Shown here piece after piece: positions 18,815-41,988 of a stretch of DNA of 64,000 nt; within the stretch, counting starts at the first letter, position 1, and every line of letters starts with the position of its first letter. Below the pieces are notes generated by a model, which did no database searches, was not told the DNA's origin, and saw only the letters and a list, made by a program, of their open reading frames with translations. The stretch covers positions 3,410,001 to 3,474,000 of the forward strand of contig NZ_CP041616.1 of assembly GCF_007197575.1 (NCBI RefSeq). The letters run 5' to 3'. The translations under genes and the position numbers were made by a program. This DNA comes from Ornithinimicrobium ciconiae. Lineage in GTDB: Bacteria; Actinomycetota; Actinomycetes; Actinomycetales; Dermatophilaceae.

Positions 18815-18868
18815 AATTTGAGAGGGGTTTCGTAGGCCCACCCCGCATTTTGAGAGGGGTTTCGTAGG
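18815..18868. repeat. 32-bp iterated element, locus A (2 copies)
   Basis: Core copies at 18815-18836 and 18847-18868 share TTGAGAGGGGTTTCGTAGG exactly and are separated by a 10-bp spacer CCCACCCCGC. This gives the 32-bp period seen at the other loci. Position: just upstream of iscS, downstream of the etfA terminator. Confidence 0.95.
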
Positions 18869-18914
18869 TGCGGCTCACCGCGGACCCGGCTCCCCGGCAT
18901 CCACACAGAGACAG

Positions 18915-18950
18915 ACCGGCTCCGATGCTCGGGTGAGCGTCGGAGCCGGT
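18915..18950 (-). terminator. etfBA operon terminator
   Basis: Arms ACCGGCTCCGA (18915-18925) and TCGGAGCCGGT (18940-18950), continued by a T-G wobble and a GCTC/GAGC inner stem with a GGGT tetraloop. It lies 21 bp past the etfA stop and isolates etfBA from iscS. Confidence 0.85.
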
Positions 18951-18971
18951 GCTGTATGCCGTGTGGCGGGG

Positions 18972-19931
18972 TCAGCCCTTGCGGGTCTGGACCTCCTGGG
19001 TCGCCTGGGGCAGGACCTTGAACAGGTCGCCGACGACGCCGAAGTCGACCAGTTCGAAGATCGGAGCCTCGGGGTCCTTGTTGATCGCGACGATGGTCTT
19101 GGAGGTCTGCATGCCCGCACGGTGCTGGATCGCTCCGGAGATCCCGGCCGCGATATAGAGCTGCGGGGAGACCTGCACACCGGTCTGGCCGACCTGGGAT
19201 GCGTGGGGGTACCACCCGGCGTCGACCGCGGCGCGGGAGGCACCCACGGCGGCACCGAGGGAGTCCGCGAACGCCTCGACGGGGCTGAAGTCGCCCGCGG
19301 TGCCGCGGCCGCCGGAGACCACGATCGCGGCCTCGGTCAGCTGCGGACGCCCGGAGGCGGCCTTCTCCTTGCGGTCCACGATCTTGGCGGCGGTGGCCTG
19401 CTCGGACAGGGACACCGTCACGGTCTCCTCGGCCGCCGCGCCCTGGGCCTCCTGAGCCGGGATCGAGTTGGGCTTGACCGTCACGATCGGGGAGCCCTTG
19501 GTGACCGAGGTGGTCACGGTGTAGCTGCCGGCGAAGACGGACTGCACGGTGCGCACCCCGCCACCCTCGCCCGGCTGGACGTCCACGGCGTCGGTGACCA
19601 GGCCAGACTCGGTCTTGATCGCCAGACGGCCGGCGATCTCCTTGCCCTCCGAGGTCGAGGGAACCAGCACCGCAACCGGGCTGGTCTGAGCCACCAGTTG
19701 GGCCAGGACCTCAGCGGTTGGGGCCACTAGGTGGTCGGTGACCGCAGGGTCCTCGACGCGGTAGACCTTCGCCGCGCCGAACTGCGCCAGGGTCTGCTTG
19801 GCGTTGTCGAAGCCAGAGCCGACGAAGACGGCGGACGGCTCACCCAGGCGGGCCGCGGCGGTCAGCATCTCAGCGGTGGTCTTGCGGACGTTTCCGTCGA
19901 CGTGGTCGACCAGAACGAGCACTTCAGCCAT
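18972..19931 (-). CDS. etfA: electron transfer flavoprotein subunit alpha
   Basis: EtfA binds FAD and, with EtfB, passes electrons from acyl-CoA dehydrogenases to the quinone pool. The protein has 319 residues. The C-terminal FAD domain is complete: [27 protein letters not shown], and the PROSITE-type signature around [18 protein letters not shown] and [20 protein letters not shown]. It follows etfB by 27 bp with a GAAGGAGAA ribosome binding site, and is followed by a strong terminator. The same gene pair precedes iscS-mnmA in Mycobacterium. Confidence 0.97.
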
Positions 19932-19958
19932 GATGGTTCTCCTTCTCTTCCGGTCGGG

Positions 19959-20741
19959 TCAGACGAACTTGCGGGAGGCGAGGAACTCGGCCAGGGCCTT
20001 GCCGCCCTCGCCCTCGTCGGTGACGATCTCGCCCGCGGCGCGCGGCGGACGCGCCTCGACCTGCTCGACCTTCGTCCAGGCGGCGTCGAGTCCGACCTGG
20101 CTGGCGTCCACGCCCAGGTCAGCCAGACCCCAGGTCTCCACCTGCTTCTTCTTCGCCGCCATGATCCCCTTGAAGGAGGGGTAGCGCGGCTCGTTGATCT
20201 GGTCGGTGACCGAGACCACGGCCGGCAGGGACGCCTCGATCGTCTCGGAGGCGGCGTCGCCGTCGCGGCGGATCCGGGCGGTGCCGCCCTCGACGGTCAG
20301 CTCGGAGGCGAAGGTCACCTGCGGCAGACCCAGGCGCTCGGCCAGCATCGCCGGCACCACACTCATCGAACCGTCGGTGGAGGCCAGGCCGGTCAGCACC
20401 AGGTCGACCGGGCCGATCTTCTTGATCGCCTCGGCCAGCACAAGCGAGCTGGCGACGGCGTCGGAGCCGGCGATCGCGTCGTCCAGGACGTGGACGCCCT
20501 TGTCGGCGCCCATCTGCAGGCTCTTCTTGATCGCGTCCACGGCGTCCTCCGGACCCATGGTCAGGATCGTCACCTCACCCCCGTCCCCGGCTTCGTTGAT
20601 CGCCAGAGCCGCCTCCACGGCATACTCGTCCAGCTCGGAGAGCAGACCGTCCACGGCCTCGCGGTCAGTGGTGTTGTCGGCCTCGAAACTGCGGTCGGAC
20701 TGCGCGTCCGGCACGTACTTGACACACACGACGATGTTCAC
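19959..20741 (-). CDS. etfB: electron transfer flavoprotein subunit beta
   Basis: A 260-residue EtfB with N-terminal MNIVVCVKYVPD, AMP-binding TGLASTDGSMSVVPAMLAE and C-terminal IMAAKKKQVETW, all characteristic. It starts at GTG 20741 behind a GAGGA ribosome binding site. It is the first gene of the etfBA operon. Together with the enoyl-CoA hydratase, thiolase and 3-hydroxyacyl-CoA dehydrogenase in this window, it serves fatty-acid oxidation. Confidence 0.97.
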   Translation of the reverse strand: MNIVVCVKYVPDAQSDRSFEADNTTDREAVDGLLSELDEYAVEAALAINEAGDGGEVTILTMGPEDAVDAIKKSLQMGADKGVHVLDDAIAGSDAVASSLVLAEAIKKIGPVDLVLTGLASTDGSMSVVPAMLAERLGLPQVTFASELTVEGGTARIRRDGDAASETIEASLPAVVSVTDQINEPRYPSFKGIMAAKKKQVETWGLADLGVDASQVGLDAAWTKVEQVEARPPRAAGEIVTDEGEGGKALAEFLASRKFV

Positions 20742-20820
20742 GTGTCGATCCTCATCGTTGGGAGCGGATGGTTCCTGTCACTCATCTTCGCACTGCCCCG
20801 GCACACCACACCAAACGGGG

Positions 20821-21570
20821 TCAGCTCAGGGCTCGGAAAAGCACGTCCATCCCGAGCACGACCACCGTGAGGAAGGGAAAGATGAAGGCGGTCAGCCACT
20901 GGACTGCCGTGCGGGTCGGCGCGGGGCGGCGCGGGTCGAGGATCTCGTCGGGCTCGGCGAGGTCGGCCCAGGTCAGCACCACCTGCAGCGCCAGCGCCAG
21001 CACACCGGCGACCGCCATGGTGCCCCAACCGACCTCGACCACCGTCTCGCGCAGCAGCACCTGCGGGATCAGCAGCGCAGTCAGCACGGCAAAGGGCAGG
21101 ACAAAGGTCGTCCACCGGTGGCGCACCAGCCAGGTCATCGCCGGCCCGGGACGCAGGGCGACGATGAGGGTCAGCAGCAGAGCGAGGCCGACCGCCACCA
21201 GGTCCCCCTGGGAGACCGCGACCAGACCGCCCTCCACCCAGGCCTCGACTGCTCGCGGCACCACGACCAGCCCCACGAGGCCGAGAAGGAGCCCGATGAC
21301 GGTGCTGGTCCGGAGCCGGAAGGTGCGCGGGGCTGTCCCCTCCACCAAGGAGCGGGAGTATGCCGCCGGGTCACCGAAGGCCTGCTCGGCGCTCTCCCCC
21401 GACTCGGCACAGTGCGTGTCGACGACCGCGAGCGCGTCCCCGATCTCGACTCCGGTGCGGTCGGCGAGACGCTGCTCGAAGACGAAGGTCTCGCGCCAGC
21501 TCCGGTCGATGTGCGGGGTGCTGCGCCCGACGTCGTTGCCTGCGGGCAGGTCACTGTTGGTGCTGGTCAT
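20821..21570 (-). CDS. HAAS-type membrane partner of PadR
   Basis: A 249-residue protein. The N-terminal part (about 22-75) has the HAAS look: ETFVFEQRLADRTGVEIGDALAVV then DTHCAESGESAEQAFGDPAAY. It is followed by about five membrane helices. HAAS proteins are regularly encoded after padR genes and are thought to sense signals. Its ATG overlaps the padR stop (ATGA), so they are co-translated. The start at 21570 is chosen for that overlap; a long upstream in-frame extension is only a shadow of padR. Confidence 0.85.
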   Translation of the reverse strand: MTSTNSDLPAGNDVGRSTPHIDRSWRETFVFEQRLADRTGVEIGDALAVVDTHCAESGESAEQAFGDPAAYSRSLVEGTAPRTFRLRTSTVIGLLLGLVGLVVVPRAVEAWVEGGLVAVSQGDLVAVGLALLLTLIVALRPGPAMTWLVRHRWTTFVLPFAVLTALLIPQVLLRETVVEVGWGTMAVAGVLALALQVVLTWADLAEPDEILDPRRPAPTRTAVQWLTAFIFPFLTVVVLGMDVLFRALS

Positions 21571-21926
21571 GAGTTGGCCCGTCCCTTCGAGACGATCTGG
21601 TCGGTCAGTGCGCGGGTGATGGTAGTGAACTCGGCCCAGGCGGCTGCCTGCCGCTGCGCCTCGGCCCGCCCGACCGCGGTGAGCTGATAGAACTTGCGGC
21701 CCGGTCCGCCCTCTCCCGGCCGCCACTCGACCTCGACGTGGCCCGCCTCCTCGAGGCGACCGAGCAGCGGATAGAGCGTGCCCCCCTTGATGGTGCCCAA
21801 CCCCGCGTCGCCAAGACGTGAGGCGATGGCATAGCCATAGGTCGGGCCGTCGCACAGGATCCGCAGCGTGCAGACGCTCAGCACGCCGCGCAGCCACTCG
21901 CTGGGCCACTCCTGTTCTGCATTCAT
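21567..21926 (-). CDS. PadR-family transcriptional regulator
   Basis: A 119-residue winged-helix repressor. The recognition region is visible as LRILCDGPTYGYAIASRLGDAG and GTIKGGTLYPLLGRLEEAGHV, followed by the wing EVEWRPGEGGPGRKFYQLT and a C-terminal dimerisation helix. PadR proteins usually repress their own operon; the symmetric operator overlapping its start supports this. First gene of the padR-HAAS operon. Confidence 0.94.
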   Translation of the reverse strand: MNAEQEWPSEWLRGVLSVCTLRILCDGPTYGYAIASRLGDAGLGTIKGGTLYPLLGRLEEAGHVEVEWRPGEGGPGRKFYQLTAVGRAEAQRQAAAWAEFTTITRALTDQIVSKGRANS

Positions 21927-21961
21927 GACTAGATGATGTCACTAACTAGTCAGGCACGTCA
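21926..21961 (-). promoter_or_regulatory. padR promoter and probable auto-operator
   Basis: TGACTAG (21926-21932) and CTAGTCA (21946-21952) form a 7-bp inverted repeat with a 13-bp centre. On the minus strand TTGACG (21956-21961) is a -35, and CATCAT (21933-21938), 6 nt before the ATG, is the -10 at 17-18 bp. The palindrome covers the -10 and spacer, so bound PadR would block transcription; the mRNA would be leaderless. Confidence 0.7.
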
Positions 21962-21977
21962 ACTAGCCTGCCCCTCC

Positions 21978-22063
21978 ATTTTGCGAGAGGCTTCGCAGGG
22001 CCTCCGCGCCATTTTCGAGAGGTTTCGCAGGGCCTCCGCGCCTTTTGCGAGAGGTTTCGCAGC
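21978..22063. repeat. 32-bp iterated element, locus B (3 copies, variant)
   Basis: Copies at 21978-21999, 22011-22031 and 22042-22063 with the variant core TTTTGCGAGAGGNTTCGCAG. Spacers are GCCTCCGCGC(C), period 31-33 bp. In this variant TGCGA and TCGCA can pair around GAGGCT. It lies between the divergent padR and VOC genes. Confidence 0.9.
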
Positions 22064-22092
22064 CTGTCGGTGCCGCCCCCTACCGTCGCTCC

Positions 22093-22452
22093 ATGACAAG
22101 CACGCACCATGCGATCGACTACATCGAGATCAACGTCCACGACCTGACTGTGGCGCGCGAGTTCTATTCCCGTGCCTTTGGGTGGCAGTTCACCGCCTAC
22201 GGTCCCAGCTACGCCGGCATCCAGGCACCAGACGGGCAGGGCGAGGTCGGCGGGCTCAACGCCGAGGGCACACCCGGACCGGGCGGTCCGCTGGTCCTGC
22301 TCTACTCGGAGGACCTGGGTTCGACCCTCGCCGCCGTGGAAGCCGCAGGTGGACGGGTCCTCCAACCTCCCTACGCGTTCCCGGGCGGACACCGGTTCCA
22401 GTTCGCCGACCCCAGCGGCAACCAACTGGGCGTGTGGTCCCCTAGCTCGTGA
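22093..22452 (+). CDS. VOC-superfamily (glyoxalase-like) protein
   Basis: A 119-residue single-domain VOC protein made of two beta-alpha-beta-beta-beta units. The first metal-ligand-like position is in IDYIEINVHDLTVAREFYSRA and the second half ends in HRFQFADPSGNQLGVWSP. The substrate is unknown; this subfamily is often annotated as glyoxalase or bleomycin-resistance-like. The start at ATG 22093 is fixed by TACCGT (22081-22086) exactly 6 nt upstream, a leaderless arrangement. Confidence 0.88.
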   Translation: MTSTHHAIDYIEINVHDLTVAREFYSRAFGWQFTAYGPSYAGIQAPDGQGEVGGLNAEGTPGPGGPLVLLYSEDLGSTLAAVEAAGGRVLQPPYAFPGGHRFQFADPSGNQLGVWSPSS

Positions 22453-22462
22453 CCGTGCCGCG

Positions 22463-22504
22463 CCGCGCCTCGGCCTGCGGCCGCGGCACCTCGGCCTGCG
22501 GCAG
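22463..22504. repeat. 21-bp tandem duplication after the VOC gene
   Basis: CCTCGGCCTGCGGC occurs at 22468-22481 and 22489-22502, with similar flanks, 15 bp past the VOC stop codon. Confidence 0.75.
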
Positions 22505-22578
22505 CTGCACCACGGGCTGCCCTCGACTCTATGGTCGCCAGCATTGCATCCGGACGTGCCACAGCGCACGATGTGCCC

Positions 22579-23613
22579 ATGAGCCTTGAACTGGGACTAG
22601 ACACCTTCGGTGACATCGCGAACGGGGCCGACGGCGAGCCGCTGCACCCGGCAGAGGTGGTCCGGGAGGTGCTCGCCGAGGGACAGCTGGCCGACCGGCT
22701 GGGCCTGGACTTCTTCGGGGTCGGGGAGCACCACCGTCCCGACTACGCCATCTCGGCGCCGGACACCGTGCTGGCCGCCCTAGCCACCACCACCGAGCGG
22801 ATCCGGCTCGGGACGTCGGTCACCGTGCTCAGCTCCGAGGATCCAGTGCGAGTGTTCGAGCGCATCTCGACGGTGGACGCGCTCTCCCGCGGCCGCGCGG
22901 AGATCACCGTCGGCCGTGGGTCCTTCATCGAGTCCTTCCCGCTGTTCGGCTATGCGCTGGAGGACTACGAGGTCCTCTTCTCGGAGAAGCTCGATCTGCT
23001 GGCGCACCTGCTGACCGGGGAGCCGGTGCGCTGGGAGGGCACCACGCGTTCGCCGCTGGAGGTGGAGCAGGTGCTGCCCGGCACCGAGAGCCAGCGGCTG
23101 ACCACCTGGGTGGGCGTCGGGGGCACCCCGCAGTCCGTGGTGCGTGCCGCGTCCTACGGGCTGCCGATCGTGGTGGCGATCATCGGCGGTCCGGCACGTC
23201 AGTTCGCGCCGCTCATCGACCTCTATCGCCGGGCACTGACTCAGGCCGAACTCCCCGAGTTGCCGGTCGGCGTGCACTCACCGGGTCACGTCGCCGCCAC
23301 GGACGAGCAGGCCCAGGAGGAATACCTCGGTCCGTTCGTGGAGTACATGAACCGCCTGGGCCAGGAGCGGGGCTGGGCACCGATGACCGAGGACCGGGCG
23401 CGGGACCAGCTCGGACTGCACGGCGCCGCCTATGTCGGATCGCCGGAGACCGTCGCCCGCAAGATCGCTGACACCGCGCGCCTGCTCGGCCTCTCTCGCT
23501 TCCAACTCAAATACAGCATGGGTCACCTCCCCCACGCCCAGCGCCTGGAGTGCATCAGGCTGTATGCCGAGCAGGTCGCCCCGCGCGTGCGGGAACTCCT
23601 CGCGGCCTCCTGA
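22579..23613 (+). CDS. LLM-class flavin-dependent oxidoreductase
   Basis: A 344-residue bacterial-luciferase-like TIM barrel. Visible hallmarks are FFGVGEHHRPDYAISAPD near residue 45, TERIRLGTSVTVLSSEDPVR, and FERISTVDALSRGRAEITVG, which build the flavin site. The LLM family uses FMN or F420 to oxidise diverse small molecules; the substrate cannot be told. The start at ATG 22579 gives the normal MSLELGLDTFGD terminus and has CACGAT 6 nt upstream. A single-gene unit convergent with the enoyl-CoA hydratase. Confidence 0.92.
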   Translation: MSLELGLDTFGDIANGADGEPLHPAEVVREVLAEGQLADRLGLDFFGVGEHHRPDYAISAPDTVLAALATTTERIRLGTSVTVLSSEDPVRVFERISTVDALSRGRAEITVGRGSFIESFPLFGYALEDYEVLFSEKLDLLAHLLTGEPVRWEGTTRSPLEVEQVLPGTESQRLTTWVGVGGTPQSVVRAASYGLPIVVAIIGGPARQFAPLIDLYRRALTQAELPELPVGVHSPGHVAATDEQAQEEYLGPFVEYMNRLGQERGWAPMTEDRARDQLGLHGAAYVGSPETVARKIADTARLLGLSRFQLKYSMGHLPHAQRLECIRLYAEQVAPRVRELLAAS

Positions 23614-23643
23614 CACACAGGCCTCACGGGCCGGGACGCCGCA

Positions 23644-23681
23644 CGCCCTCCCCACGAGCCCGGTTGGGCGTGAGGAGGGCG
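23644..23681. terminator. possible terminator between LLM and enoyl-CoA hydratase genes
   Basis: CGCCCTCC (23644-23651) pairs with GGAGGGCG (23674-23681); an alternative pairing CACGCCC/GGGCGTG overlaps it. The long loop makes this weak. Confidence 0.35.
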
Positions 23682-23707
23682 CGCTAGGCGGTTGTCCTAC
23701 TTCTGTC

Positions 23708-24514
23708 CTACTTCGCGATGAACTTGGCCTTGCCGGGCCCGTCCTGCACGAACGAGGTCATGCCGATCTGCCGGTCCTGCGTGGCGAAGACCCCTGCGAA
23801 GAGCATCGCCTCCATCGCCAGGGCGGTGTCCAGGTCGGTCTCCATCCCGCGGTCGATGGCCTCCTTGGCCGCCCGTAGGGCGTAGGCCGGACCACTGGCG
23901 TACGTCGCTGCGCGGGCTCGCGCTGCGGCATACACCTGGTCGGGCTCGACCACCTCATCGACGAGACCGATCGCGAGCGCCTCCTCGGCGTCGACCATCC
24001 GGCCGCTGAAGACCAGGTCCTTGGCCTTCGCGGTGCCGACCAGGCGCGGCAGGCGCTGTGAGCCACCGGCACCGGGGATGACGCCGAGCAGGATCTCGGG
24101 CTGGCCCAGCTTGGCGTCGCTACCGACGATGCGGAAGTCGGCGCACAGGGCCAGCTCGCAGCCGGCACCGAGGGCATAGCCGGTGATCGCGGCGATGGTC
24201 GGCTTGGGGATGTGCGCCACCGCCTTGAAGCGCTCCTGGATGACGGCGGCCCGGTCGACCATGTCGGTGTAGGACATGGTCTCCATCTCCTTGATGTCCG
24301 CGCCGGCGGCGAAGACCTTCTCCCCGCCGTAGATGATCACGGCGCGCACCTCGGCGTCGGCCGTGACGATGGCGGCGGCCTCACCGAGGGCGTCCTGCAC
24401 CGCCGTGTCCAGCGGGTTCATCTTCGGACGGTCAATCACGATGGTGGCGATGCCGTCCTCGATCTCGACGCGCACGTGCTCGGTGGAGGTCTCCACCGTG
24501 CGGATCTGCGTCAT
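23708..24514 (-). CDS. enoyl-CoA hydratase/isomerase family protein
   Basis: A 268-residue crotonase-fold enzyme, most like short-chain enoyl-CoA hydratase, which hydrates trans-2-enoyl-CoA in beta-oxidation. Oxyanion-hole segment FAAGADIKEM (about 68-77) and both catalytic glutamates are present: Glu120 in ALGAGCELALCADFRI and Glu140 in GQPEILLGVIPGAGG, with the canonical 20-residue gap. Its ATG overlaps the stop of the YbjN-like gene (ATGA), so it is the second gene of that operon. Confidence 0.95.
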   Translation of the reverse strand: MTQIRTVETSTEHVRVEIEDGIATIVIDRPKMNPLDTAVQDALGEAAAIVTADAEVRAVIIYGGEKVFAAGADIKEMETMSYTDMVDRAAVIQERFKAVAHIPKPTIAAITGYALGAGCELALCADFRIVGSDAKLGQPEILLGVIPGAGGSQRLPRLVGTAKAKDLVFSGRMVDAEEALAIGLVDEVVEPDQVYAAARARAATYASGPAYALRAAKEAIDRGMETDLDTALAMEAMLFAGVFATQDRQIGMTSFVQDGPGKAKFIAK

Positions 24515-25122
24515 GACTCGCCGCCAGCGCCGGGCTCGCCGTTCCCGCCGGACTCCGGGCGCGGACGGCGCAGCCCCTCAGACAGCCACGGGCCCACCTT
24601 GGGCTGCTCGCCGGAGGCGACCGCGTCCTGGTGCTCGCTGACGATGTCACCGGTGCCACCGGCGGCGATGTCGGCCTCGCGCTTGGACTTGGCCGCGATG
24701 TTGCGGTGCCAGAGCTGCACGGCCTGCAGGATCATGCTCACCGCGATCTGCAGCTTGGCCTTCGGGTTCTCCTTAGGCGCGATGACCTGCTCCACGCTCA
24801 GGACCAGGTTGCCCGCAGCGATCCCGGCCTTGACCAGGTTGACGCCCAGGGTGATGTCATTGCACCCGTTGAGGCGGGTGAGCAGGTCCTCGGGGACGTT
24901 CTCAGAGATCTTCCACTGTCCGTAGACACGCAGGATGTCCAACTGTCCACCGGTCAGCGAGCGGGCAAACAGCTGCTGCTCCTGGGCGACAAACTTCACG
25001 TCACCGTCGGAATCGAGGTCGGGCTGCAGCTTCAGGTCCTGGAGTGCGTCGAGCACGCGGCCACGGAGCGGGTGCTCGTCGGGCGGCGGGGGAAAGTTCG
25101 GCAACGAGGTCGGGTCGGTCAT
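24511..25122 (-). CDS. YbjN-domain protein
   Basis: A 203-residue soluble protein with a YbjN/CesT-like alpha-beta domain (about 20-150): GDVKFVAQEQQLFARSL, LDILRVYGQWKI, and DITLGVNLVKAGIAAGNLVLS. The family resembles secretion chaperones, but its actinobacterial role is unknown. A hydrophilic Gly/Pro-rich tail of about 50 residues follows. The start ATG 25122 has TACGTT 6 nt upstream, suggesting a leaderless mRNA. Operon with the enoyl-CoA hydratase; divergent from glgX. Confidence 0.82.
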   Translation of the reverse strand: MTDPTSLPNFPPPPDEHPLRGRVLDALQDLKLQPDLDSDGDVKFVAQEQQLFARSLTGGQLDILRVYGQWKISENVPEDLLTRLNGCNDITLGVNLVKAGIAAGNLVLSVEQVIAPKENPKAKLQIAVSMILQAVQLWHRNIAAKSKREADIAAGGTGDIVSEHQDAVASGEQPKVGPWLSEGLRRPRPESGGNGEPGAGGES

Positions 25123-25128
25123 GACTCC

Positions 25129-25150
25129 AACGTAACTGAGTCCTTAGGCT
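25129..25150. promoter_or_regulatory. back-to-back leaderless -10 boxes, ybjN-like / glgX
   Basis: TACGTT on the minus strand (25129-25134) lies 6 nt from the YbjN-like ATG; TAGGCT on the plus strand (25145-25150) lies 6 nt from the glgX ATG. The spacer between the two start codons is only 34 bp, so each -35 must lie near or inside the opposite gene, and the two polymerases would compete. Confidence 0.6.
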
Positions 25151-25156
25151 GCCACC

Positions 25157-27272
<2,116 letters not shown>

Positions 27273-27280
<8 letters not shown>

Positions 27281-27352
27281 TGTGAGAGGGGACCCCCTAA
27301 TTTGAGAGGGGTTTCGTCGGTCGTTCCCGGGTTTTTGCAGGGGTTTCGTAGG
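27273..27352. repeat. 32-bp iterated element, locus C, fused to a stop-codon duplication
   Basis: Cores at 27299-27320 and 27331-27352 (32-bp offset, spacer TCGTTCCCGG) share GGGGTTTCGT. Immediately before them CCCCCTAATNTGAGAGGGG occurs at 27273-27291 and 27293-27311, so the glgX stop TAA (27278-27280) is duplicated along with half a core. Confidence 0.9.
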
Positions 27353-27458
27353 TGTCGGACCACGACGTCCCCGGACCGCGACAGCCCCGTGGCAGCCCCT
27401 GATCGCTGCCCTGTGGACAACGAAAACGAGCCTCCCCGCGCCCGTGTCACGATCGGCC

Positions 27459-28742
27459 ATGGGCGAGAACGAACTGTTGCTACGACATGCCGAGAACTGG
27501 GCGGCGGCCAAGGAGCGGCCGCTGGACCGGCACCTGTTGGAGGCGGTCCTGGAGGCGTGGGCTCGGCACGAGGCGCAGTCTGTCCAGCGCTGGCCGACCG
27601 GCTCCGCCGAGAGCCTGCTGCTGCACCACCTCCCGGCCGAGAGGCCGCTTGAGGACTCCGAGGCGGGGGCGCTGGTTCAGAGTCTGGAGACCTTCTGGCG
27701 GTTCCTGCGCAGCACCGGCCGGATGCGTTCCGGCTCGGCCGACCCCAGGGATCTGGTCAAGGAGGCCCGGCGCGTTGCGCCCGCCATGGCGACTGTGCCC
27801 CCTGAGTGCGCGCGCACCACGACCGTCGAGGAAGCCCTGACTGAGTGGTCCGCCCACGTCAGAGACGAGGACTGGGACGATGAAGAGTTCGACGACGAGG
27901 GGGAGGACTACCTCGACCAGCTGAAGGACGAGTTGAAACACGAAGAGACCTGGGCGCTCCTCCCATGCGTCGAGGACTGGGCTCAGGATCTGTCGCTCGA
28001 AAGCTCCGCAGCGGAGGCCAGAAGGGCACCCTTCGTGCTGGAGTGCCTGCGTTTCGCCCAGTGGGTCGGGGAGGGGAGGGGGGTCACCGGAGGTGTCCTG
28101 TGTCCCGCCCAGATCCAGGAGGCTTCACGCAGGTTCGGCCTCGTGGACTGGGAGCGTGAGTTCCTGGCACGCTCACCGTTGCGCGAACCTGGTGGTGAGC
28201 TCTCGCCCGCCCTGCGACATCTCCAGCCCGATGCGGAACTCGGCAGCCTGGACCACCTGGTCGCCCACCGCGCTCTCCGTTCCCTGTGGTACGCCTGCGA
28301 GGCCGGCGGTCTCATCGCAATCCACTCCACAACTGTCTGTGCCACCCCTGCTGCGGACGCGCACTATCTGCGCTCCGACGACGACTGGGTGGATCTGGCA
28401 CTGACGGCCGCGGTCGCGGCGGTCCAGGAACGTCTCTTCCTCGAGCCCGTCGACCCACTGCTGCGGGTGATCTTCCCGTTCCTGGCTGCAGAGGGGGACC
28501 GGGTCGAGCTCCCTGACGTGCAGGGATGGTGGTGGGAGCACGACGCCAGCCCCTGGGCTTCACTAGAACTCACGCCGGCCCAGGCCAGGCTGGCATCCGA
28601 TCGCCAGGTGGAGCGCCAACTGTGGGCGCTGGAGGACACCGGACTGTGGCGGCGCGACGGTCAGACGCTGCACCGCACAGCGCTGGGCATGGACATGGCC
28701 ACTCTCAGCGCGGACGACCCGACGCAGTTCTTCGGTGTCTAG
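27459..28742 (+). CDS. hypothetical protein, acidic, 427 aa
   Basis: A 427-residue soluble, acidic protein that I do not recognise. The start ATG 27459 has CACGAT 5 nt upstream, and upstream sequence is repeat-rich. Residues about 115-160 are strongly acidic (DEDWDDEEFDDEGEDYLDQL) and probably flexible. The rest is helical with many Trp residues, such as HAENWAAAKERPLDRHLLEAV at the start and GWWWEHDASPWASLELT near the end. There are no membrane segments or nucleotide-binding motifs. It resembles the loosely defined actinobacterial proteins with plant-disease-resistance-like repeats only in composition. Single gene. Confidence 0.7.
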   Translation: MGENELLLRHAENWAAAKERPLDRHLLEAVLEAWARHEAQSVQRWPTGSAESLLLHHLPAERPLEDSEAGALVQSLETFWRFLRSTGRMRSGSADPRDLVKEARRVAPAMATVPPECARTTTVEEALTEWSAHVRDEDWDDEEFDDEGEDYLDQLKDELKHEETWALLPCVEDWAQDLSLESSAAEARRAPFVLECLRFAQWVGEGRGVTGGVLCPAQIQEASRRFGLVDWEREFLARSPLREPGGELSPALRHLQPDAELGSLDHLVAHRALRSLWYACEAGGLIAIHSTTVCATPAADAHYLRSDDDWVDLALTAAVAAVQERLFLEPVDPLLRVIFPFLAAEGDRVELPDVQGWWWEHDASPWASLELTPAQARLASDRQVERQLWALEDTGLWRRDGQTLHRTALGMDMATLSADDPTQFFGV

Positions 28743-28766
28743 AAGGCCTCGCTGACCCGCTCGCCG

Positions 28767-29693: not shown

Positions 29694-29807
29694 GTGCGCC
29701 ACCTCCTGCGCACAGGGTGGCGGGAGGTATGCCGACACTCCAGACCTGCCGCCAGGCCTGGGGAGAACGTGGGTCGCGCGAGCGCCCTGTGGACGGGACC
29801 GGCACAA

Positions 29808-29884
29808 CCACTACGAAAACGCGGGGTGCACCGACGAAACCCCTCTCAAAATGCGGGTTCCACCTACGAAACCACTATCTTTTT
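29808..29884. repeat. 32-bp iterated element, locus D (2 copies plus a remnant)
   Basis: Cores at 29831-29852 (CGACGAAACCCCTCTCAAAA) and 29863-29884 (divergent 3' half), spacer GCGGGTTCCA; a shortened copy ends at 29820 before spacer GCGGGGTGCA. Orientation is opposite to loci A-C. It lies between the glgP 3' end and the start of the AbiEi-like gene. Confidence 0.9.
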
Positions 29885-29897
29885 GGGGGGAGGGGGG

Positions 29898-32477
29898 TCA
29901 GGCGTTCGCCACCAGCCCGAGCTCGGCGTCGCTGGCCAGCAGCGGGTGGGCCGGCAGCACGCGCACGGTCCAGCCGAGGCTGCCCGTGCGGGTCAGCGCG
30001 AGCTCACCGTCGAACCGGTGCTTGCCGCCCTCATAGGACTCCACCGGCTCCAGCACGCTGGTCTCGACCTCGGTCAGCTCGTCGGACTCGGACGCCCGGC
30101 CGAAGGCCACCTGCACGGTGACCTCCTCCGGCGAGAGACCACCCAGTGCGAGATAGGCACGCACCCGCACGGTCTCGCCGACCTGGGGAGTGTCGCTGAC
30201 CCCTTCGGCCTCGACGTGCTCCACACGCACCGACGGCCATGCCTGGCGCAGCCGCGCGACGCGCTCAGCCAGGTCGCGCGCGCCCTCAAAGTTGCGCTGT
30301 GCGACGGCCCGGCCGGCACGCGCCGCAGGCAGATAGAGCGACTGCGTGTAGTCCTGCACCATCCGGTCGGCCATCACCTTGGGGCCGAGCGTGCCCAGCG
30401 TGTGCGTGAGCATCTCCAGCCAGCGGGTCGGCAGACCGGCCTCGTCGCGGTCGTAGAAGGTCGGGACGACGTTGTTCTCCAGCAGGTCATAGAGCGCCGA
30501 CGCCTCGAGCTCGTCACGCCGCTCGTCGTCGACACCGTCGGCCGTGGGGATCGCCCAGCCGTTCTCGCCGTCGAACCACTCGTCCCACCAGCCGTCCAGG
30601 ATCGACAGGTTCAGGGCACCGTTGAGCGCGGCCTTCATGCCGGAGGTGCCACACGCCTCAAACGGGCGCAACGGGTTGTTGAGCCAGACGTCGCAGCCGG
30701 GATAGAGCCGCTGCGCCATCGCGATGTCGTAGTTGGGCAGGAAGACGATCCGGTGCCGCAGCTTCGGGTCGTCGGTGAAGCGCACCATCTCCTGGATGAG
30801 TCGCTTGCCGGTGTCGTCGGCCGGGTGCGCCTTGCCGGCGATCACCAGCTGCACCGGACGCTCCTCGTCGAGCAGGATCTTGGCCAGCCGCTCCGGGTCG
30901 CGCAGCATCAGGGTCAACCGCTTGTATGTCGGAACTCGCCTCGCGAAGCCGATCGTCAGCACGTCGGGGTCCAGGACGTCATCGATCCAGCCCAGTTCCG
31001 CCGACGTCGCACCGCGGTCGCGCATCGACTTGCGCAGCCGGGTGCGGGTCTCGGCCACGAGCTGTTCACGCATCTCGCGCTTGGTCGACCAGATCCGGTC
31101 GGTCGGGACCTGGTCGACGCTGGAGAAGGCAGTGCCGTCCTGGATGGCGTGCGGGCCCATGAACTCCGTTGCCAGGTCAAAGACCTTGCGGTCCACCCAG
31201 GTGCCGGCGTGCACGCCGTTGGTGATCGAGCCGATCGGCACCTCGGACTCGTCGAAGCCCGGCCACAGCCCCTTGAACATGCCGCGGCTGACCGCACCGT
31301 GCAGCACGGAGACGCCGTTGGCGCGCTGACCCAGCCGCAGGCCCATCACCGCCATGTTGAACACGCCGGTGTCGCCACCGCGATAGGTCTCGGCGCCCAG
31401 CTCCAACAGCTTGGTCAGCGGCACGCCGGGCAGCTCCGCGGCGCCACCGAAGTGCTGACCGATCTGGTTGATGCCGAACCGGTCGATGCCGGCGGGCACC
31501 GGGGTGTGGGTGGTGAAGACGGTGGAGGCCCGCACCGCGCGCAGCGCCTCTTCGAAGGTCAGGTCGGCGGCCTGGGTGAGCTCGCTGATCCGCTCCAGCC
31601 CCTGGAAGCCGGCGTGGCCCTCGTTCATGTGATAGACGTCCGGCTCCGGAGCGCCGGTCAGTCGGGACCACAGCCGCAGGGCACGGACCCCGCCGATGCC
31701 GAGCAGCATCTCCTGCTGCAACCGCTGGTCGCCCCCGCCGCCATAGAGACGGTCGGTCAGGTCGCGCCTGCTGGCGTCGTTGGTCTCCACGTCGGAGTCC
31801 AGCAGCAGCAGCGGCACCCGCCCGACCTGGGCACGCCAGACGTGGGCGTCCAGGTGCGCCCCGCCCGGCATCGCCAGGGAGAGCACCGCCGGGCTGCCGT
31901 CGGCCTCGCGCAGCAGCGACAGCGGCAGATCGTCGGGGTCCAGCACCGGATAGGACTCCTGCTGCCACCCCTCGGCGTTGAGCCGCTGACGGAAGTAGCC
32001 ACTCTTGTAGAACAGCCCGATGCCCACGATCGGCACGCCGAGGTCGGAGGCGCTCTTGAGGTGGTCGCCGGCCAGGATGCCCAGGCCGCCGGAGTACTGC
32101 GGCAGTGCGGCGGTCAGGCCGAACTCCGGGGAGAAGTAGGCGAAGGCCTGCGAGAAGTCATCGCCGGCGGCGGCCTGCGCCTCGCGCTGATACCAGCGCG
32201 GCTCGCTCAGATAGCGCTGCAGTCCCTCACCGGCCTCGCGGGCCCGCTGCACGAAGCCCGCGTCACCCTCCAGCCGGGTCAGGTCGGCCGGCGTGAGCGA
32301 GCTCAGCATGGCCATCGGCTGGCGGCGGCACTCCTGCCACTTCACCGGGTCGATGCTCTCGAACAGATCGAGGGTCGGCGGGTGCCACGACCAGCGCAGA
32401 TTGAGCGCGAGATCGTGCAGGGGGGACAGTGCGTCGGGCAGAACGGTGCGCACGTGGAGTCTGCGGATGGCCTTCAC
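29898..32477 (-). CDS. glgP: alpha-glucan phosphorylase GlgP
   Basis: A GT35 phosphorylase releasing glucose 1-phosphate from glycogen ends. It has 859 residues from GTG 32477, the length of the mycobacterial homologue. An N-terminal DUF3417 segment (LHDLALNLRWSWHPPTLDLF) is followed by FSPEFGLTAALPQYSGGLG, VYHMNEGHAGF, VFTTHTPVPAG and the PLP-region motif NPLRPFEACGTSGMKAALNG. A start upstream is rejected because TACCCT lies 7 nt before this GTG. It is divergent from glgE, an order conserved in Mycobacterium. The last 100 residues form a beta-rich tail. Confidence 0.96.
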   Translation of the reverse strand: MKAIRRLHVRTVLPDALSPLHDLALNLRWSWHPPTLDLFESIDPVKWQECRRQPMAMLSSLTPADLTRLEGDAGFVQRAREAGEGLQRYLSEPRWYQREAQAAAGDDFSQAFAYFSPEFGLTAALPQYSGGLGILAGDHLKSASDLGVPIVGIGLFYKSGYFRQRLNAEGWQQESYPVLDPDDLPLSLLREADGSPAVLSLAMPGGAHLDAHVWRAQVGRVPLLLLDSDVETNDASRRDLTDRLYGGGGDQRLQQEMLLGIGGVRALRLWSRLTGAPEPDVYHMNEGHAGFQGLERISELTQAADLTFEEALRAVRASTVFTTHTPVPAGIDRFGINQIGQHFGGAAELPGVPLTKLLELGAETYRGGDTGVFNMAVMGLRLGQRANGVSVLHGAVSRGMFKGLWPGFDESEVPIGSITNGVHAGTWVDRKVFDLATEFMGPHAIQDGTAFSSVDQVPTDRIWSTKREMREQLVAETRTRLRKSMRDRGATSAELGWIDDVLDPDVLTIGFARRVPTYKRLTLMLRDPERLAKILLDEERPVQLVIAGKAHPADDTGKRLIQEMVRFTDDPKLRHRIVFLPNYDIAMAQRLYPGCDVWLNNPLRPFEACGTSGMKAALNGALNLSILDGWWDEWFDGENGWAIPTADGVDDERRDELEASALYDLLENNVVPTFYDRDEAGLPTRWLEMLTHTLGTLGPKVMADRMVQDYTQSLYLPAARAGRAVAQRNFEGARDLAERVARLRQAWPSVRVEHVEAEGVSDTPQVGETVRVRAYLALGGLSPEEVTVQVAFGRASESDELTEVETSVLEPVESYEGGKHRFDGELALTRTGSLGWTVRVLPAHPLLASDAELGLVANA

Positions 32478-32484
32478 ACAGCAC

Positions 32485-32539
32485 AGGGTATGCCGTGGGG
32501 CAAGTGCGCCGTGCACTCCCCCGGCGGGACCGGTAGCGT
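32485..32539. promoter_or_regulatory. divergent promoters glgP / glgE
   Basis: Minus strand: TACCCT (32485-32490), 7 nt from the glgP GTG. Plus strand: TAGCGT (32534-32539), 7 nt from the glgE GTG. The start codons are only 69 bp apart, so the promoters overlap and expression of glucan breakdown and synthesis may be mutually exclusive (inference). Confidence 0.55.
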
Positions 32540-32546
32540 CTGCAGC

Positions 32547-34609
<2,063 letters not shown>

Positions 34610-34610
<1 letters not shown>

Positions 34611-36343
34611 TGCGGGGCCTCAACCTCCAGCAGCCGGGGCTCAAGCACGACCCCGACTGGTTCAAGAAGGCCGTCTTCTATGAGGTGCTGGTGCGCGCCT
34701 TCGACGACTCCACCGGGTCGGGCTCGGGTGACTTCAGCGGCCTGATCAACCGGCTGGACTATCTGCAGTGGCTCGGTGTCGACTGCCTGTGGCTGCCACC
34801 GTTCTATGCCTCCCCGCTGCGGGACGGCGGCTACGACGTGGCCGACTACACCGCCGTCCTTCCCGAGTTCGGCACCCTGCCGGAGTTCCAGGAGCTCATC
34901 TCCCAGGCGCACGCGCGCGGCATACGCATCATCACCGACCTGGTGATGAACCACACCTCCGACCAGCACGCCTGGTTCCAGGCGTCCCGGGCCGAGCCGG
35001 ACGGGCCCTACGGCGACTTCTACGTCTGGTCGGACACCGACGACAAGTATGCCGACGCGCGCATCATTTTCGTCGACACCGAGGTGTCCAACTGGTCCTT
35101 CGACAGCGTCCGCCGGCAGTTCTACTGGCACCGCTTCTTCAGCCACCAGCCGGACCTCAACTTTGAGAACGAGGCCGTGCAGGAGGCGATGTTCGACGTC
35201 GTCCGGTTCTGGATGGACATGGGCATCGACGGCTTCCGCCTGGACGCCGTGCCCTACCTGTTCGAGGAGGAGGGCACCAACTGCGAGAACCTGCCGCGCA
35301 CCCATGAGTTCCTCGCCCGGCTGCGGACCATGGTGGACGAGGAGTATCCCGGTCGGGTCCTGCTCGCCGAGGCCAACCAGATGCCCTCGGAGGTGGTGGA
35401 CTACTTCGGCACCCCCGAGGCGCCCGAGTGCCACATGTGCTTCCACTTCCCGGTGATGCCGCGGCTCTACTACGCGCTGCGGGAGGAGAAGGCCGAGTCG
35501 ATCATCCGGGTGATGAACGAGACGCCCGCCATCCCGGAGGGCACCCAGTGGGGCACCTTCCTGCGCAACCACGACGAGCTGACCCTGGAGATGGTCTCCG
35601 GGGAGGAACGCTCCGCGATGTACGGCTGGTATGCCCCCGACCCGCGGATGCGCGCCAACATCGGCATCCGGCGCCGGCTCGCACCACTGCTGGACAACTC
35701 CCGGCAGGAGATCGAGCTGATCAACGCCCTGCTGCTGAGCCTGCCCGGCTCACCGTGCCTCTACTACGGCGACGAGATCGGCATGGGGGACAACATCTGG
35801 CTCACCGACCGCGACGCCGTCCGCACCCCGATGCAGTGGACCCCGGACCGCAACGCCGGCTTCTCCACGGCGGACCCCGGCAAGCTCTATCTGCCGGTGA
35901 TCTCCAGCCTGGTCTATCACCACGGCGCGGTGAACGTGGAGGCGCAGATGGCCACCGGTTCCTCACTGCTGCACTGGGTCCGAGGAATGCTCCAGGTCCG
36001 CTCGCGGCACGAGGTCTTCGGGATCGGTGAGTTCACCCTGTGCGAGGCGGACAACCCTGCTGTGCTGGCCTTCACCCGGGTGGTCCCCACGGCCCCAGCC
36101 GGTCCGGACGGGGAGCGCCCCGAGCTGGAGGTCGAGGGTCGGCGCGGCGTCCTGTGCGTCAACAACCTGGCGGCCAAGCCGCAGGCGGCTCGCATCAAGC
36201 TGCCCCCGGAGCTGGGCGGGGCGCTCACCGTCGACCTGTTCGGCGGCACGGGCTTCCCCGACGTCGACGACGAGGGCATGATCCATCTGACACTGGGCTC
36301 GCAGGACTTCTTCTGGCTCGGTCTGACTCCCGAAGGAGCATGA
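34610..36343 (+). CDS. treS: trehalose synthase TreS (maltose alpha-D-glucosyltransferase)
   Basis: TreS isomerises trehalose and maltose and supplies maltose for the kinase. The 577-residue GH13_16 enzyme shows [33 protein letters not shown], nucleophile Asp212 ([10 protein letters not shown]), Glu254 (LLAEANQMP) and Asp322 ([12 protein letters not shown]). The ATG overlaps the glgE stop by one base (TGATG). No maltokinase domain is attached, unlike the TreS-Mak fusions of other bacteria; here the kinase is fused to GlgB instead. Confidence 0.97.
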
Positions 36344-39300
36344 ATGACCACGCTGTCGCCCGCCTTCTCCGAGTTCCTGCCCGGCTGGGTCGCCTCCCAG
36401 CGCTGGTTCACCGGCAAGGGACGCACCCCGTTGCTGCGCCGCGTCGGCGGTTATCAGCTCCAGGACCCGGCTGGTGAGGTCGGCGTCGAGGTGCACCTGG
36501 TGGTCGATGAGTCCGGTCCCGAGCCGGTCACCTATCACGTGCCGCTCACCTCCCGCGGGCAGGCTGCCCCCGAGCTGCACACCGCCCTGGTGGCTACGAC
36601 CGAGCACAGCGAGCTGGGTCAGCGCTGGATCTATGACGGCTGCCACGACCCGGCCTATGTGCAGGCCCTGGCCGACCTGATGCACTCCGGGTCGAGTGCC
36701 CCCGGCGAGGACGGCACCGTCCTGACCGGCGACGCCACCACGGTCCGGGCGGCCGGGCCCCGCCCGGTCGTGCGGCGCAGCGCCGTCCTGGTCGGCGAGC
36801 AGTCCAACACCTCGATCATCGTCGAGACCGGTGAGCCGGGTCAGTCCGCGCCGGTGATCATCAAGGTCTTCCGGGTGCTGCACTCCGGGGAGAACCCCGA
36901 CGTGGCGGTGCAGAGCGCGCTCGCCGAGGCCGGCAGCACCCTGGTGCCGCAGCCGGTCGGCTGGGTCACCGGCACCTGGCACGACACCGACGGGTCGACG
37001 GCGCAGGGCCACCTCGCCTATGCGCAGGAGTTCCTGCCCGGGGTGCAGGATGCCTGGCGCACCGTCCTGGTCGCGGCCCGCGAGGAGAGCGACTTCTCCG
37101 ACCGGGCCCGTGAGCTGGGTGTCGCGACGGCTCAGGTGCACGCCACGCTCCGCGAGGCCTTCGGGACCGAGGAGCTCACCCCGCAGCGCCGCGGCGCTCT
37201 GGTGGACGGGCTGCGCGAGTGGCAGCAGCGTGCGGTCGAGGCGGCCCCGGAACTGGCCGCGGACGACGAGCAGATCTCCGCCGTGCTGTCCGCAGCCGAT
37301 GACGTGGACTGGCCTGTGCTACAACGCATCCACGGCGACTATCACCTGGGCCAGGTGCTCGACGTGCCGGACCGCGGGTGGGTGCTGGTCGACTTCGAGG
37401 GCGAGCCGCTGCGGCCGCTGCACGAGCGCTCCCTGCCCGACCTGGCACTGCGCGACGTGGCCGGCATGCTGCGCTCCTTCGACTACGCCGCCGGGTCGAT
37501 CGCCCAGGACGCCGACCTGGACCGGGCCAGCTGGGCACGATCCACTCGGGCCGCCTTCCTGGAGGGCTATGTCGGCGAGTCCGGCGTCGACCTGGACGCC
37601 TCGGCTCCCGTGCTGGCCGCCCTCGAGCTGGGCAAGGCGCTCTACGAGGTCGTCTACGAGGCCCGCAACCGCCCCGCCTGGATCGGCATCCCGGTCGCCG
37701 CCGTCCGCGCCCTCATCGGCTCCTCCCCCTCCCCCGACCGAGCGCACGATGTGGCGTCCTCAGGCTCAACCGCCGGTGACAACAACAGCACCCCGAGCGC
37801 AGAGTCTGACGACCGGGCGCCCCTCGGTGGCTTGGCCGCTGGTGCCAGCGACACCCCCCAGGAACCCCAGGTCGCCACGGGCCAGCCCGACACCACCGGG
37901 TCATCCGAGGAGCAAAACCCCTCCAAAAATACGCGGGAGGCCGACAAAACCCCTCCAAAAATTGGAGAGAAACCGCTCGACGGGCACGAGGTGGAGCGGC
38001 TCATGCGGGGGCTGCACCGCGACCCGCACTCGGTGCTGGGCGCACACCCGCACGACGGCGGCATCACGGTCCGGACCCTGCGGCCGCTGGCCGAGTCGGT
38101 CACCGTGGTGACGCAGGGCGGCGAGCGCCACCCCATGCGCCACGAGACGCACGGCATCTGGACCGCGGTGCTGGCGCGTCCGGACATCCCCGACTACCGG
38201 CTCGAGGTCTCCTGGGGTGACGGCGTGGGCCACCTCCAGGACGACCCCTACCGCTTCCTGCCCACGCTGGGCGAGATGGACCGACACCTGATCGGCGAGG
38301 GACGTCACGAGCAGCTCTGGACCGTCCTGGGCGCCCACCTGCGCACGTATGACGGACCGATGGGTCAGGTGCGCGGCACCAGCTTTGCGGTGTGGGCACC
38401 CAATGCCCGCGGGGTGCACGTGGTCGGCGACTTCAACCAGTGGGACAACACCGCGCACCCGATGCGTGTCCTGGGCGAGAGCGGCGTCTGGGAGATCTTC
38501 GTGCCGGGCGTCTGGGAGGGCAACCGCTACAAGTTCGACATCACCGGCCCCGACGGGCACCGCCGCCTCAAGGCCGACCCGATGGCCCGCGCCGCCGAGC
38601 AGCCTCCGAGCTCGGCCTCGGTCGTGTCGCACAGCTGGCACGAGTGGCAGGACGCGGACTGGATGCGTCAGCGCGCCGAGCGTGACCCGCACACCGGCCC
38701 GATGAGCATCTATGAGGTGCACCTGGGCTCCTGGCGCCAGGGGGCCTCCTACCGCGACCTGGCAGAGCAGCTGACCAGCTACGTCAGCCAGATGGGCTTC
38801 ACGCACGTGGAGCTGATGCCGGTGATGCAGCACCCCTACGCCCCGTCGTGGGGTTACCACGTGACCGGCTACTACGCGGCCGACTCACGCTTCGGCTCCC
38901 CCGACGACCTGCGCTATCTGATCGACCGGCTGCACCAGGCTGGCATCGGCGTGATCCTGGACTGGGTGCCCGGTCACTTCGCGACGGACCCGTGGGCACT
39001 TGCCCGCTTCGACGGGACCCCGATCTATGAGCACCCGGACCCGCGCCGCGGGTGGCAGAACGAGTGGGGCTCCTACATCTTCGACTTCGGTCGCCCGCAG
39101 GTGCGCAACTTCCTGGTCGCCAACGCGCTGTTCTGGCTGGAGGAGTTCCACGCCGACGGCCTGCGCGTGGACGGGGTCGCCTCCATGCTCTACCTGGACT
39201 ACTCGCGCAACGAGGGTGAGTGGTTGCCCAACAAGTACGGCGGGCGGGAGCACCTCGAGGCCGTCGCGCTGCTGCAGGAGACCAACGCCACGGCCTACCG

Positions 39301-40218
39301 GCGCAGCCCCGGTGTCGTCATCATCGCCGAGGAGTCGACGTCCTGGCCCGGGGTCACCCGGTCCACCTCGAGCGGTGGGCTGGGCTTCGGCTTCAAGTGG
39401 AACATGGGCTGGATGCACGACTCGCTGGACTACATCAAGCACCAGCCGGTCCACCGCCAGTACCACCACCACCAGATGACCTTCTCGCTGATGTATGCCT
39501 TCTCCGAGCAGTTCGTCCTGCCGATCAGCCACGACGAGGTCGTGCACGGCAAGGGCTCGCTGGTCCGCAAGATGGGTGGCAACGACCGCTGGCAGCAGCT
39601 CGCCAGCCTGCGCGCCTACCTGGCGTTCATGTGGGCCCACCCGGGCAAGCAACTGCTGTTCATGGGCCAGGAGTTCGCCCAGATCGGCGAGTGGGCGGAC
39701 GGGCGCAGCCTGGACTGGTGGCTGCTGGACCAACCGGCGCACGTCGGGGTCCAGCACCTCGTGCGCGACCTCAACCTGACCTACCGCGACACTCCTGCCC
39801 TGTGGGAGCTGGACCACAAGAGCTCGGGCTTTCAGTGGCTGGACGCCGACGACGCCCGCGGCAACACCTTCAGCTTCATCCGGTATGGCGGCGAGTCACC
39901 TGCGGGGGACCGTCCTGTTCTCGTGGCGGCAGCTAACTTCTCCGGCTCGCCCCGGGAGGTCCGGGTCGGCGTGCCCCGCCCGGGCAGCTGGCGCGAGCTG
40001 ATCAACACCGACGCGCACACCTACGGCGGCTCGGGGGTCGGCAACCTGGGCAGCGTCCAGAGCACCGACCAGCCCCACCAGGGGCAGGCCCACTCGGTGA
40101 CCCTCACCCTGCCGCCGCTGGGCGTGCTCTGGCTGACGCCGGAGGGCCGGGCCGCTGAACTCACCGAACCCGCCGACGACTCCGACATCGCCGCCAACCA
40201 CACTCCCCAGGAGGAGCC

Positions 40219-40222: not shown

Positions 40223-41847
<1,625 letters not shown>

Positions 41848-41859
<12 letters not shown>

Positions 41860-41950
41860 GCGGTCTAGGCATCCGACGTCTCGTGACCGCTCTCACCAGC
41901 TGAGCGGTCTAGGCATCCGACGTCTCGTGACCGCTCTCACCAGCTGAGCG
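41848..41950. repeat. 44-bp exact tandem duplication across the pgm stop codon (2.3 copies)
   Basis: Copies at 41848-41891 and 41892-41935 are identical; a third partial copy runs to 41950. Each begins CTCACCAGCTGAGCGGTC and so contains the last codons and TGA of pgm. Inside each full unit GAGCGGTC and GACCGCTC can pair as a hairpin; the third copy has lost that hairpin. Confidence 0.97.
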
Positions 41951-41988
41951 TTCTTGGGCACCCTTGCGTCTCAGTGCCAGTGGTTCGG

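Follow-up and report, generated by a model that had tools for sequence, protein, structure and literature searches.

Phased tandem repeats at gene edges in Ornithinimicrobium and their possible role as polar boundaries of transcription

The arrays of the window and the genome-wide repeat

The DNA analysed here (the window) is a stretch of 64,000 nucleotides from Ornithinimicrobium ciconiae, positions 3,410,001 to 3,474,000 of contig NZ_CP041616.1; the genome, a single contig of 4,092,907 bases, is G000 in our numbering (the window being G000:C1:3410001-3474000), and the other genomes searched carry further G numbers. Our subject is a short direct repeat that stands at five places in the window, arrays A to E, as two or three units in tandem. 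An earlier note had pointed to these five loci, and all were found where it placed them, on the plus strand for A, B and C and on the minus strand for D and E. With genes called by a purpose-written codon-usage gene caller, the arrays and adjoining genes are these:

Array A, 18816..18868 (+): two units, 32 bp apart
Array B, 21979..22063 (+): three diverged units, a profile match
Array C, 27300..27352 (+): two units; the stop (27278-27280) of a GlgX-type gene lies 19 nt ahead
Gene ahead of array C, 25208..27280 (+): GlgX, TIGR02100
Array D, 29799..29883 (-): three units, 14 nt behind the stop of the gene at 29898-32477 (-)
Gene ahead of array D, 29898..32477 (-): gene call
Array E, 37909..37961 (-): two units, antisense inside the open reading frame (ORF) 36344-40222 (+)

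Read in the direction adopted in the analysis, the unit is CCCA-TTTT(3 variable)AG(n)GGTTTCGT(A/C)GG, followed by a C-rich spacer of about 11 nt. The earlier description, a 22-bp core with a 10-bp spacer, is borne out as regards the repeat and its period, the unit now being corrected to about 25 bp (CCCA and a 21-bp core). Variable positions are interspersed between conserved blocks, and RNA-guided binding was set aside since core positions 4-6, 9 and 18 vary. The core, allowing three mismatches, has 81 matches in the 4.09-Mb genome against none for the reversed control; five of them lie in the window, in arrays A, C and D, where 100 shuffles gave none. Arrays B and E were recovered instead by a profile built from the 81 sites, to which reversed stretches give no match.

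A 57-nt two-unit model (E<=0.01) found at least 124 places in G000 among the best 150 of 936 candidates scored, overlapping places in longer arrays being counted separately, and from this the number of arrays may be estimated, very roughly, at a hundred. For closer study we took 38 stretches, the window and 37 fetched around matches, a non-random sample in that each was selected for holding a match; these contain 57 arrays and 149 units, with one, two, three, four and five units in 1, 28, 21, 6 and 1 arrays, so that 56 of the 57 have at least two. Successive units are spaced at exactly 32 bp in 85 of 92 intervals. The claim of a genome-wide element with a fixed three-turn phase thus holds, neither confinement to five loci nor a lack of 32-bp preference elsewhere having been found; the forecast of hundreds per genome is plausible for copies, with arrays fewer by that rough estimate.

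The spacers are alike among the units of many single arrays, and slippage probably adds or removes units inside an array. Last units score below first units in four of four species, and an A-tract replaces the T-tract in six of 215 units, all six of them first units; the first unit of array D is such a case, with AAAA where TTTT is expected. As to polarity relative to replication, the count was 26 of 65 G000 places among the matches listed (p=0.14), with the origin assumed, not established, to be at base 1. A CRISPR array was rejected as a candidate, the spacers being alike within many arrays and only about 11 nt long, with one to five units at many G000 loci (cas genes were not searched).

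Four further tandem repeats lie at or just behind stops in the window, at 12410-12464 (26 bp), 41843-41974 (44 bp), 52178-52267 (37 bp) and 57538-57614 (24 bp), and are not members of the 32-bp family. Immediately before array C a 20-bp direct duplication (27272-27311) spans the stop codon and half a core, and looks as if the junction of stop and array had itself been copied. Array E encodes part of its long reading frame, 36344-40222, presumably a maltokinase-GlgB fusion, and the gene at 29898-32477 (-) is presumably glgP.

Order relative to genes and the scarcity of hairpins in convergent gaps

The orientation of the arrays, described in the earlier note as mixed, proved to be strongly ordered. 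In G000, 39 of the 57 arrays follow a same-strand stop codon, and of the remaining 18, 13 run antisense, either close to a start codon or within a gene. A census of 177 arrays from nine genomes gave the following contexts:

Behind a same-strand gene, convergent neighbour: 71/177
Behind a same-strand gene, then a codirectional gene: 42/177
Antisense between codirectional genes: 27/177
Antisense inside a gene: 19/177
Between divergent genes (sense, upstream of a gene): 11/177
Sense inside a gene: 4/177
Incomplete context: 3/177

Thus 113 arrays whose neighbours are known on either side follow a same-strand gene, 46 are antisense, upstream of or inside genes (some being kept so in several species), and only 23 are inside called genes, copies being dispersed and mostly extragenic. 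Behind stops the spacing is often exact. Among 86 such arrays from seven species the commonest offset, found in 39, is exactly 4 nt, and 52 have an offset of 3-5 nt where uniform placement in the gap would give 6.5; 17 include the stop codon themselves, eight sit more than 20 nt away, and offsets are looser in G015. The letters between stop and core in offset-4 arrays are CCCA, CCAA or ACCA in 36 of 42 cases; these are the unit's own 5' letters, and therefore the array abuts the stop. The stop itself is TAA in 12 of 32 genes at arrays, compared with 12 of 241 elsewhere in the same G000 stretches and the window (p=9e-7).

Antisense arrays are similarly placed. Between codirectional genes, the head of the array (its CCCA-TTTT side) lies within 36 nt of the start codon it faces in 24 of 27 cases; array A, antisense to both flanking minus-strand genes, is an example, its head being 34 nt from the called start of the gene at 17579-18781 (-). 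Inside genes, antisense arrays outnumber sense arrays by 19 to 4 (p=0.003), one of the four being doubtful (G012, with a 60-bp interval), and nine of the 19 overlap the end of the preceding gene with the head toward the start codon. Because of these two placements, sense behind stops and antisense near starts, the head mostly faces the gene edge and the tail points away from it. Where two genes converge on an array-bearing gap in G000, only three of 22 gaps hold arrays from both genes. The genes concerned are of mixed kind; of 45 G000 genes listed as standing before or around arrays, 40 were scanned for families, which include RsmH, release factor 1, GlgX, polyphosphate glucokinase, GuaB1, RelA/SpoT, UbiA, a HerA-like ATPase, biotin carboxylase and peptidase M1, as well as some genes without a family.

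The arrays of the own dialect do not fold. In 118 two-unit segments of them there was no consensus RNA fold, the mean z against mononucleotide shuffles being +0.37 for the sense and -0.11 for the antisense strand, and the window has no Rfam match at gathering scores. Strong hairpins (-16 kcal in 36 nt, a cut-off of our choosing) were then counted in gaps of 90-450 nt. Convergent gaps hold one in 27 of 53 cases with an array and in 33 of 36 without (p=6e-5), the direction being the same in five of five species, and with length matched the sequence past the array shows the shortage too (p=0.002). A first G000-only pass, with a 130-nt limit, gave 4 of 20 and 18 of 23. Between convergent genes, arrays take the place of strong hairpins. 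Lacking a fold in the own dialect, and with hairpins rarer beside them in these gaps, the arrays are not intrinsic terminators of the usual kind (GC hairpin and T run).

Shared edges and private dialects

The own core, at three mismatches or fewer, is present in 7 of 58 genomes searched (G000 included), all of one genus, and the six relatives that hold it are the closest by the protein of the D gene, at 86-89 % identity. The two-unit model, with the best 150 candidates scored per genome, finds 72-123 places in G014, G009, G018 and G023, 19 in G007, 17 in G019 and one in G012, and none in G015, G020 and G011. Closely related species have arrays at orthologous gene edges in the dialects TTTTTGGGGAGGTTYGGACCG and TTGCCAGGGAGTTTGCRCC; more distant species have CACCGGACGCG arrays with a period of 22 or 33 bp, and another genus has TGACGTTTCGCG with a period of 21 bp. 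At up to three mismatches TTTTTGGGGAGGTTTGGACCG has 94 matches in G019, 63 in G007, 19 in G018, 10 in G000, 5 in G014 and 2 in G009, and none in the other 25 of 31 genomes of the genus or in the reversed control. A third form, TTGCGAGGGAGTTTSCGCM, has 43 matches in G015 (control 0 forward, 0 reverse) and seven in G020 (control 5), and is absent from G000, G012 and G022.

In G012, 400 kb of which were read, multi-unit GACCGGACGCGTGACCTGGCGG arrays stand behind stops at 33-bp intervals; single matches at six mismatches were not above the reversed control (26 intergenic against 54 in all), and so only multi-unit arrays and a stricter search are counted. Of the seven arrays listed for it, one is an array read a second time in antisense and another is a doubtful pair inside a gene. 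The stricter search, for CACCGGACGCGTGGNCGGGC at two mismatches or fewer, gave 40-46 matches each in G011, G012, G017, G028 and G029, 14 in G030 and 0-5 in the rest of the 58 genomes (reversed control 0-3). In G034, from another genus of the family, there are 193 GTGACGTTTCGCGRGGM sites at one mismatch or none against 0-2 in 185 other genomes; a 200-kb sample has 21-bp units at gene stops in two gaps, and 21-bp steps recur in the match list. By eye, 200 kb each of G027 and G044 (the latter of another family) yielded no convincing dispersed family. Exact patterns were also searched in genome contigs; the first had no match, and the second matched nine stretches, six in one metagenome-assembled genome (JAAYYA01) and three in Bacteroidia, Bacteroidales and Fibrobacter records, which we read as chance.

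Each dialect keeps its own period, namely 32 bp in 45 of 45 intervals in G007, 25 of 25 in G014 and 33 of 39 in G019, 31 or 32 bp in 57 of 58 in G015, 33 bp in 12 of 15 in G012, and 22 bp in 98 of 98 in G011 (94 of 94 without one array listed twice). In G011, 22 of 30 listed arrays (the same one counted twice) are behind a same-strand gene and several carry the gene's stop in their first unit. One of its arrays, at L341, has 11 units of 22 bp, the first of which holds the stop codon of the called gene. G009, which has 32-bp arrays elsewhere, holds near-identical 31-bp units at L083:2989-3102 (+) and L083:3750-3832 (-). The main periods, 21, 22 and 31-33 bp, are roughly two or three helical turns and indicate a single face of the DNA. 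We read the distant dialects as one kind of element on the basis of agreement in place and phase, not of homology.

Individual loci show how far placement is shared. At the end of the D gene, compared by eye at the loci of 18 genomes, there are phased arrays in G000, G009, G018, G019, G007 and G014 and another form in G015, six of the gene's eight nearest relatives holding arrays there; G023 has at most a trace, and there is none in G012 or in nine more distant genomes. Array A has an orthologous array at equal offset in G007 (L250), array C has them in G014 and G019, and array E has counterparts inside the orthologous ORF of G018 and G007, as well as a two-unit match in the G014 ortholog and a core match in that of G019. 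Edges shared with the 57 sampled G000 arrays account for 10 of 25 arrays in G007, 8 of 30 in G019, 6 of 18 in G014, 2 of 7 in G009, 1 of 28 in G015 and 1 of 7 in G012, counts from partial samples that stand without a chance expectation. At many edges, arrays of different dialects share one orientation and often one offset. The letters are another matter; over 27 cross-dialect orthologous pairs, 5.22 of 11 spacer letters are alike against 4.81 when permuted (p=0.03), and cores give p=0.04 for the first unit and p=0.9 for the second, which is close to saturation with a weak excess. At these shared places the letters may have drifted, or the arrays may have been replaced.

A proposed mechanism, its rivals and known systems

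We propose, with a probability of about 0.45, that the arrays are protein-bound, polar DNA boundary sites that close transcription units, and that the specificity of the binder drifts between lineages. An array would act as a DNA site, neither as an RNA nor as a coding element; we favour DNA over RNA because there is no fold and because of the A-tract substitutions, which are as expected if it is groove shape that is read. It would offer at least two asymmetric sites, each about 25 bp long, head to tail and two or three helical turns apart, to which a putative sequence-specific protein would bind cooperatively on one face of the DNA. Such binding was already suggested in the earlier note and still seems the best explanation of the phase. 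With its head adjoining a gene edge, either sense right behind a stop or antisense upstream of a start or inside an operon, the bound protein would be a polar roadblock for RNA polymerase entering at the head, and polymerase would pass freely from tail to head. Instead of hairpin terminators, the roadblock would end transcription units, and it would likewise stop antisense transcription; as the binder's specificity drifted the sites would follow, giving each species or species group a private dialect. It is the hairpin deficit in convergent gaps, the outward orientation and the antisense placement in operons that suggest a polar protein roadblock. The wider claim, of a bacterial family of genome-wide protein-bound polar boundaries at gene ends, with phased tandem sites behind stops that replace hairpins and shield operons from antisense transcription, and with binder and sites co-evolving fast, is one we hold more tentatively still.

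Several observations weigh against this proposal. The 11 arrays between divergent genes and the four sense arrays inside genes do not fit a simple polar reading; array B, sense to the gene called at 22093 (+) and 29 nt upstream of its start, is among them. The own dialect carries stop codons in the sense direction, so that translation may be what disfavours sense arrays inside genes; in the dialect of G007 and G019, which we read as free of stops, antisense arrays lead by 9 to 2 (p=0.065). Polymerase stopped by a roadblock 4 nt past the stop codon would not yet have transcribed that codon, which requires either that the first unit give way or that the second be the actual barrier. The A-tract substitutions are confined to first units. 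Codirectional gaps show no hairpin deficit (25 of 32 with an array, 53 of 71 without; 8 of 14 and 19 of 32 in the G000-only first pass), and most of the convergent gaps without arrays (21 of 36) are from G000. The BldC equivalog NF033787, a candidate model for the binder, is over its cut-off in none of 12 genomes, all of which have weaker MerR-like matches. Finally, letters across dialects are only weakly alike, so that arrays may have been replaced and not have drifted in place.

Replacement is what would be expected if the arrays were vertically inherited miniature mobile repeats, akin to the REPINs built from repetitive extragenic palindromes (REPs), moved by a non-Y1 enzyme that prefers gene ends and differs in each lineage, whence the dialects. 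Cross-dialect letters hardly above permuted agree with this, as do dispersed copies, species-specific letters and a doublet as the minimal unit (one single among 57 in G000). According to the accessible parts of two reports, the termini of REPs supply the stop codons of flanking ORFs and REPs are sometimes found inside ORFs (PMC3733652), and REP doublets are the proposed replicative unit (PMC3116915). The arrays lack a fold, however, and PF01797 (the Y1 transposase of REP type) was matched in none of 14 genomes, while a control search does match in 5 of 14 known genomes. Neither phage nor plasmid records contain a match to array A, and IMG/VR contains none to an exact own-dialect pattern. Many edges carry arrays across dialects in one orientation and often at one offset. 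The mobile, slippage-amplified repeat named in the earlier note as its alternative is thus weakened as regards mobility, another enzyme being possible, and probable as regards slippage within arrays; we consider mobile repeats an unlikely account of the family.

An element of the 3' untranslated region, a protein or small-RNA site for message stability or ribosome release, would account for the exact 4-nt offset in 39 of 86 arrays and for the excess of TAA, yet for the 46 antisense arrays the message would carry the complement, and the several periods, the missing fold and the six A-tracts in place of T-tracts fit poorly with a site in RNA; we think it quite improbable. Self-marking for DNA uptake or exchange, in the manner of DNA uptake sequences (DUS) and best tolerated at gene ends, would explain species-specific dialects and gene-end association, and DUS dialects indeed track phylogeny and often form inverted pairs at terminators, according to the accessible part of one study (PMC3630211); we judge it very improbable, given tandem phased copies, about a hundred arrays per genome instead of thousands of single short motifs, and, of the 22 convergent gaps with arrays in G000, just three with arrays from both genes. 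Neutral minisatellites, born of local slippage in functionless gene-end sequence, might produce the other tandem repeats near stops in the window and the lower scores of last units, but are hardly credible as the source of one core at many unlinked loci with fixed period and offset and with shared orthologous places, the partial table of shared edges already pointing to conserved placement.

If the proposal is right, bacteria would close genes genome-wide by fixed protein roadblocks, beside hairpins and Rho; the dialects would be a natural experiment in how the specificity of a single DNA-binding protein shifts together with that of its many sites, and could supply engineering with orthogonal boundaries. 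Even with the mechanism wrong, a hairpin-free repeat that keeps its place, phase and orientation amid letters private to species groups needs explaining.

Among known systems, REP/REPIN elements with their RAYT resemble the arrays in being dispersed, specific to species or strain, arranged in doublets, close to stops and sometimes inside ORFs, and some tandem REP arrays are reported in the part of PMC3116915 available to us. The arrays differ in being direct and not inverted, in having neither hairpin nor Y1 transposase, and in their fixed helical period and placement shared across dialects. The DUS dialects of Neisseriaceae are likewise variants, peculiar to species, of one genome-wide motif, and the binding protein presumably mirrors them; as the available part of PMC3630211 describes them, they are short motifs in thousands of copies, often in inverted pairs, and not phased arrays of 21-33 bp. 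BldC of Streptomyces binds cooperatively and directionally to a variable number of direct repeats, narrowing an AT-rich minor groove (PMC5859096, in part), and may serve as a model for head-to-tail binding, yet its equivalog is below cut-off in 12 of 12 genomes here, and its repeats, about one turn apart to judge from consensus and probe lengths in that text, are sited at promoters.

The element appears to be of a new kind, since it has no described counterpart and neither the hairpin nor the Y1 enzyme of REPs was found with it; as the earlier note had supposed, such arrays are undescribed in the titles and abstract openings of open-access papers, subscription papers lying outside that coverage. 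Its mode of action may nevertheless resemble roadblock termination, which according to the accessible part of PMC10310618 occurs in yeast and, as isolated cases, in E. coli, where RNA polymerase stalled by a bound protein can be brought to termination with Mfd; the E. coli roadblocks in that text (LacI tests) are single sites or engineered, with no mention there of genome-wide arrays at gene ends. A further likeness is to the Reb1 and TTF-I roadblocks of eukaryotes, oriented sites directly behind genes, as here; the present arrays would differ in being bacterial, tandem and phased, in standing at many genes and in the turnover of their dialects, with a binder and a terminating role that we infer.

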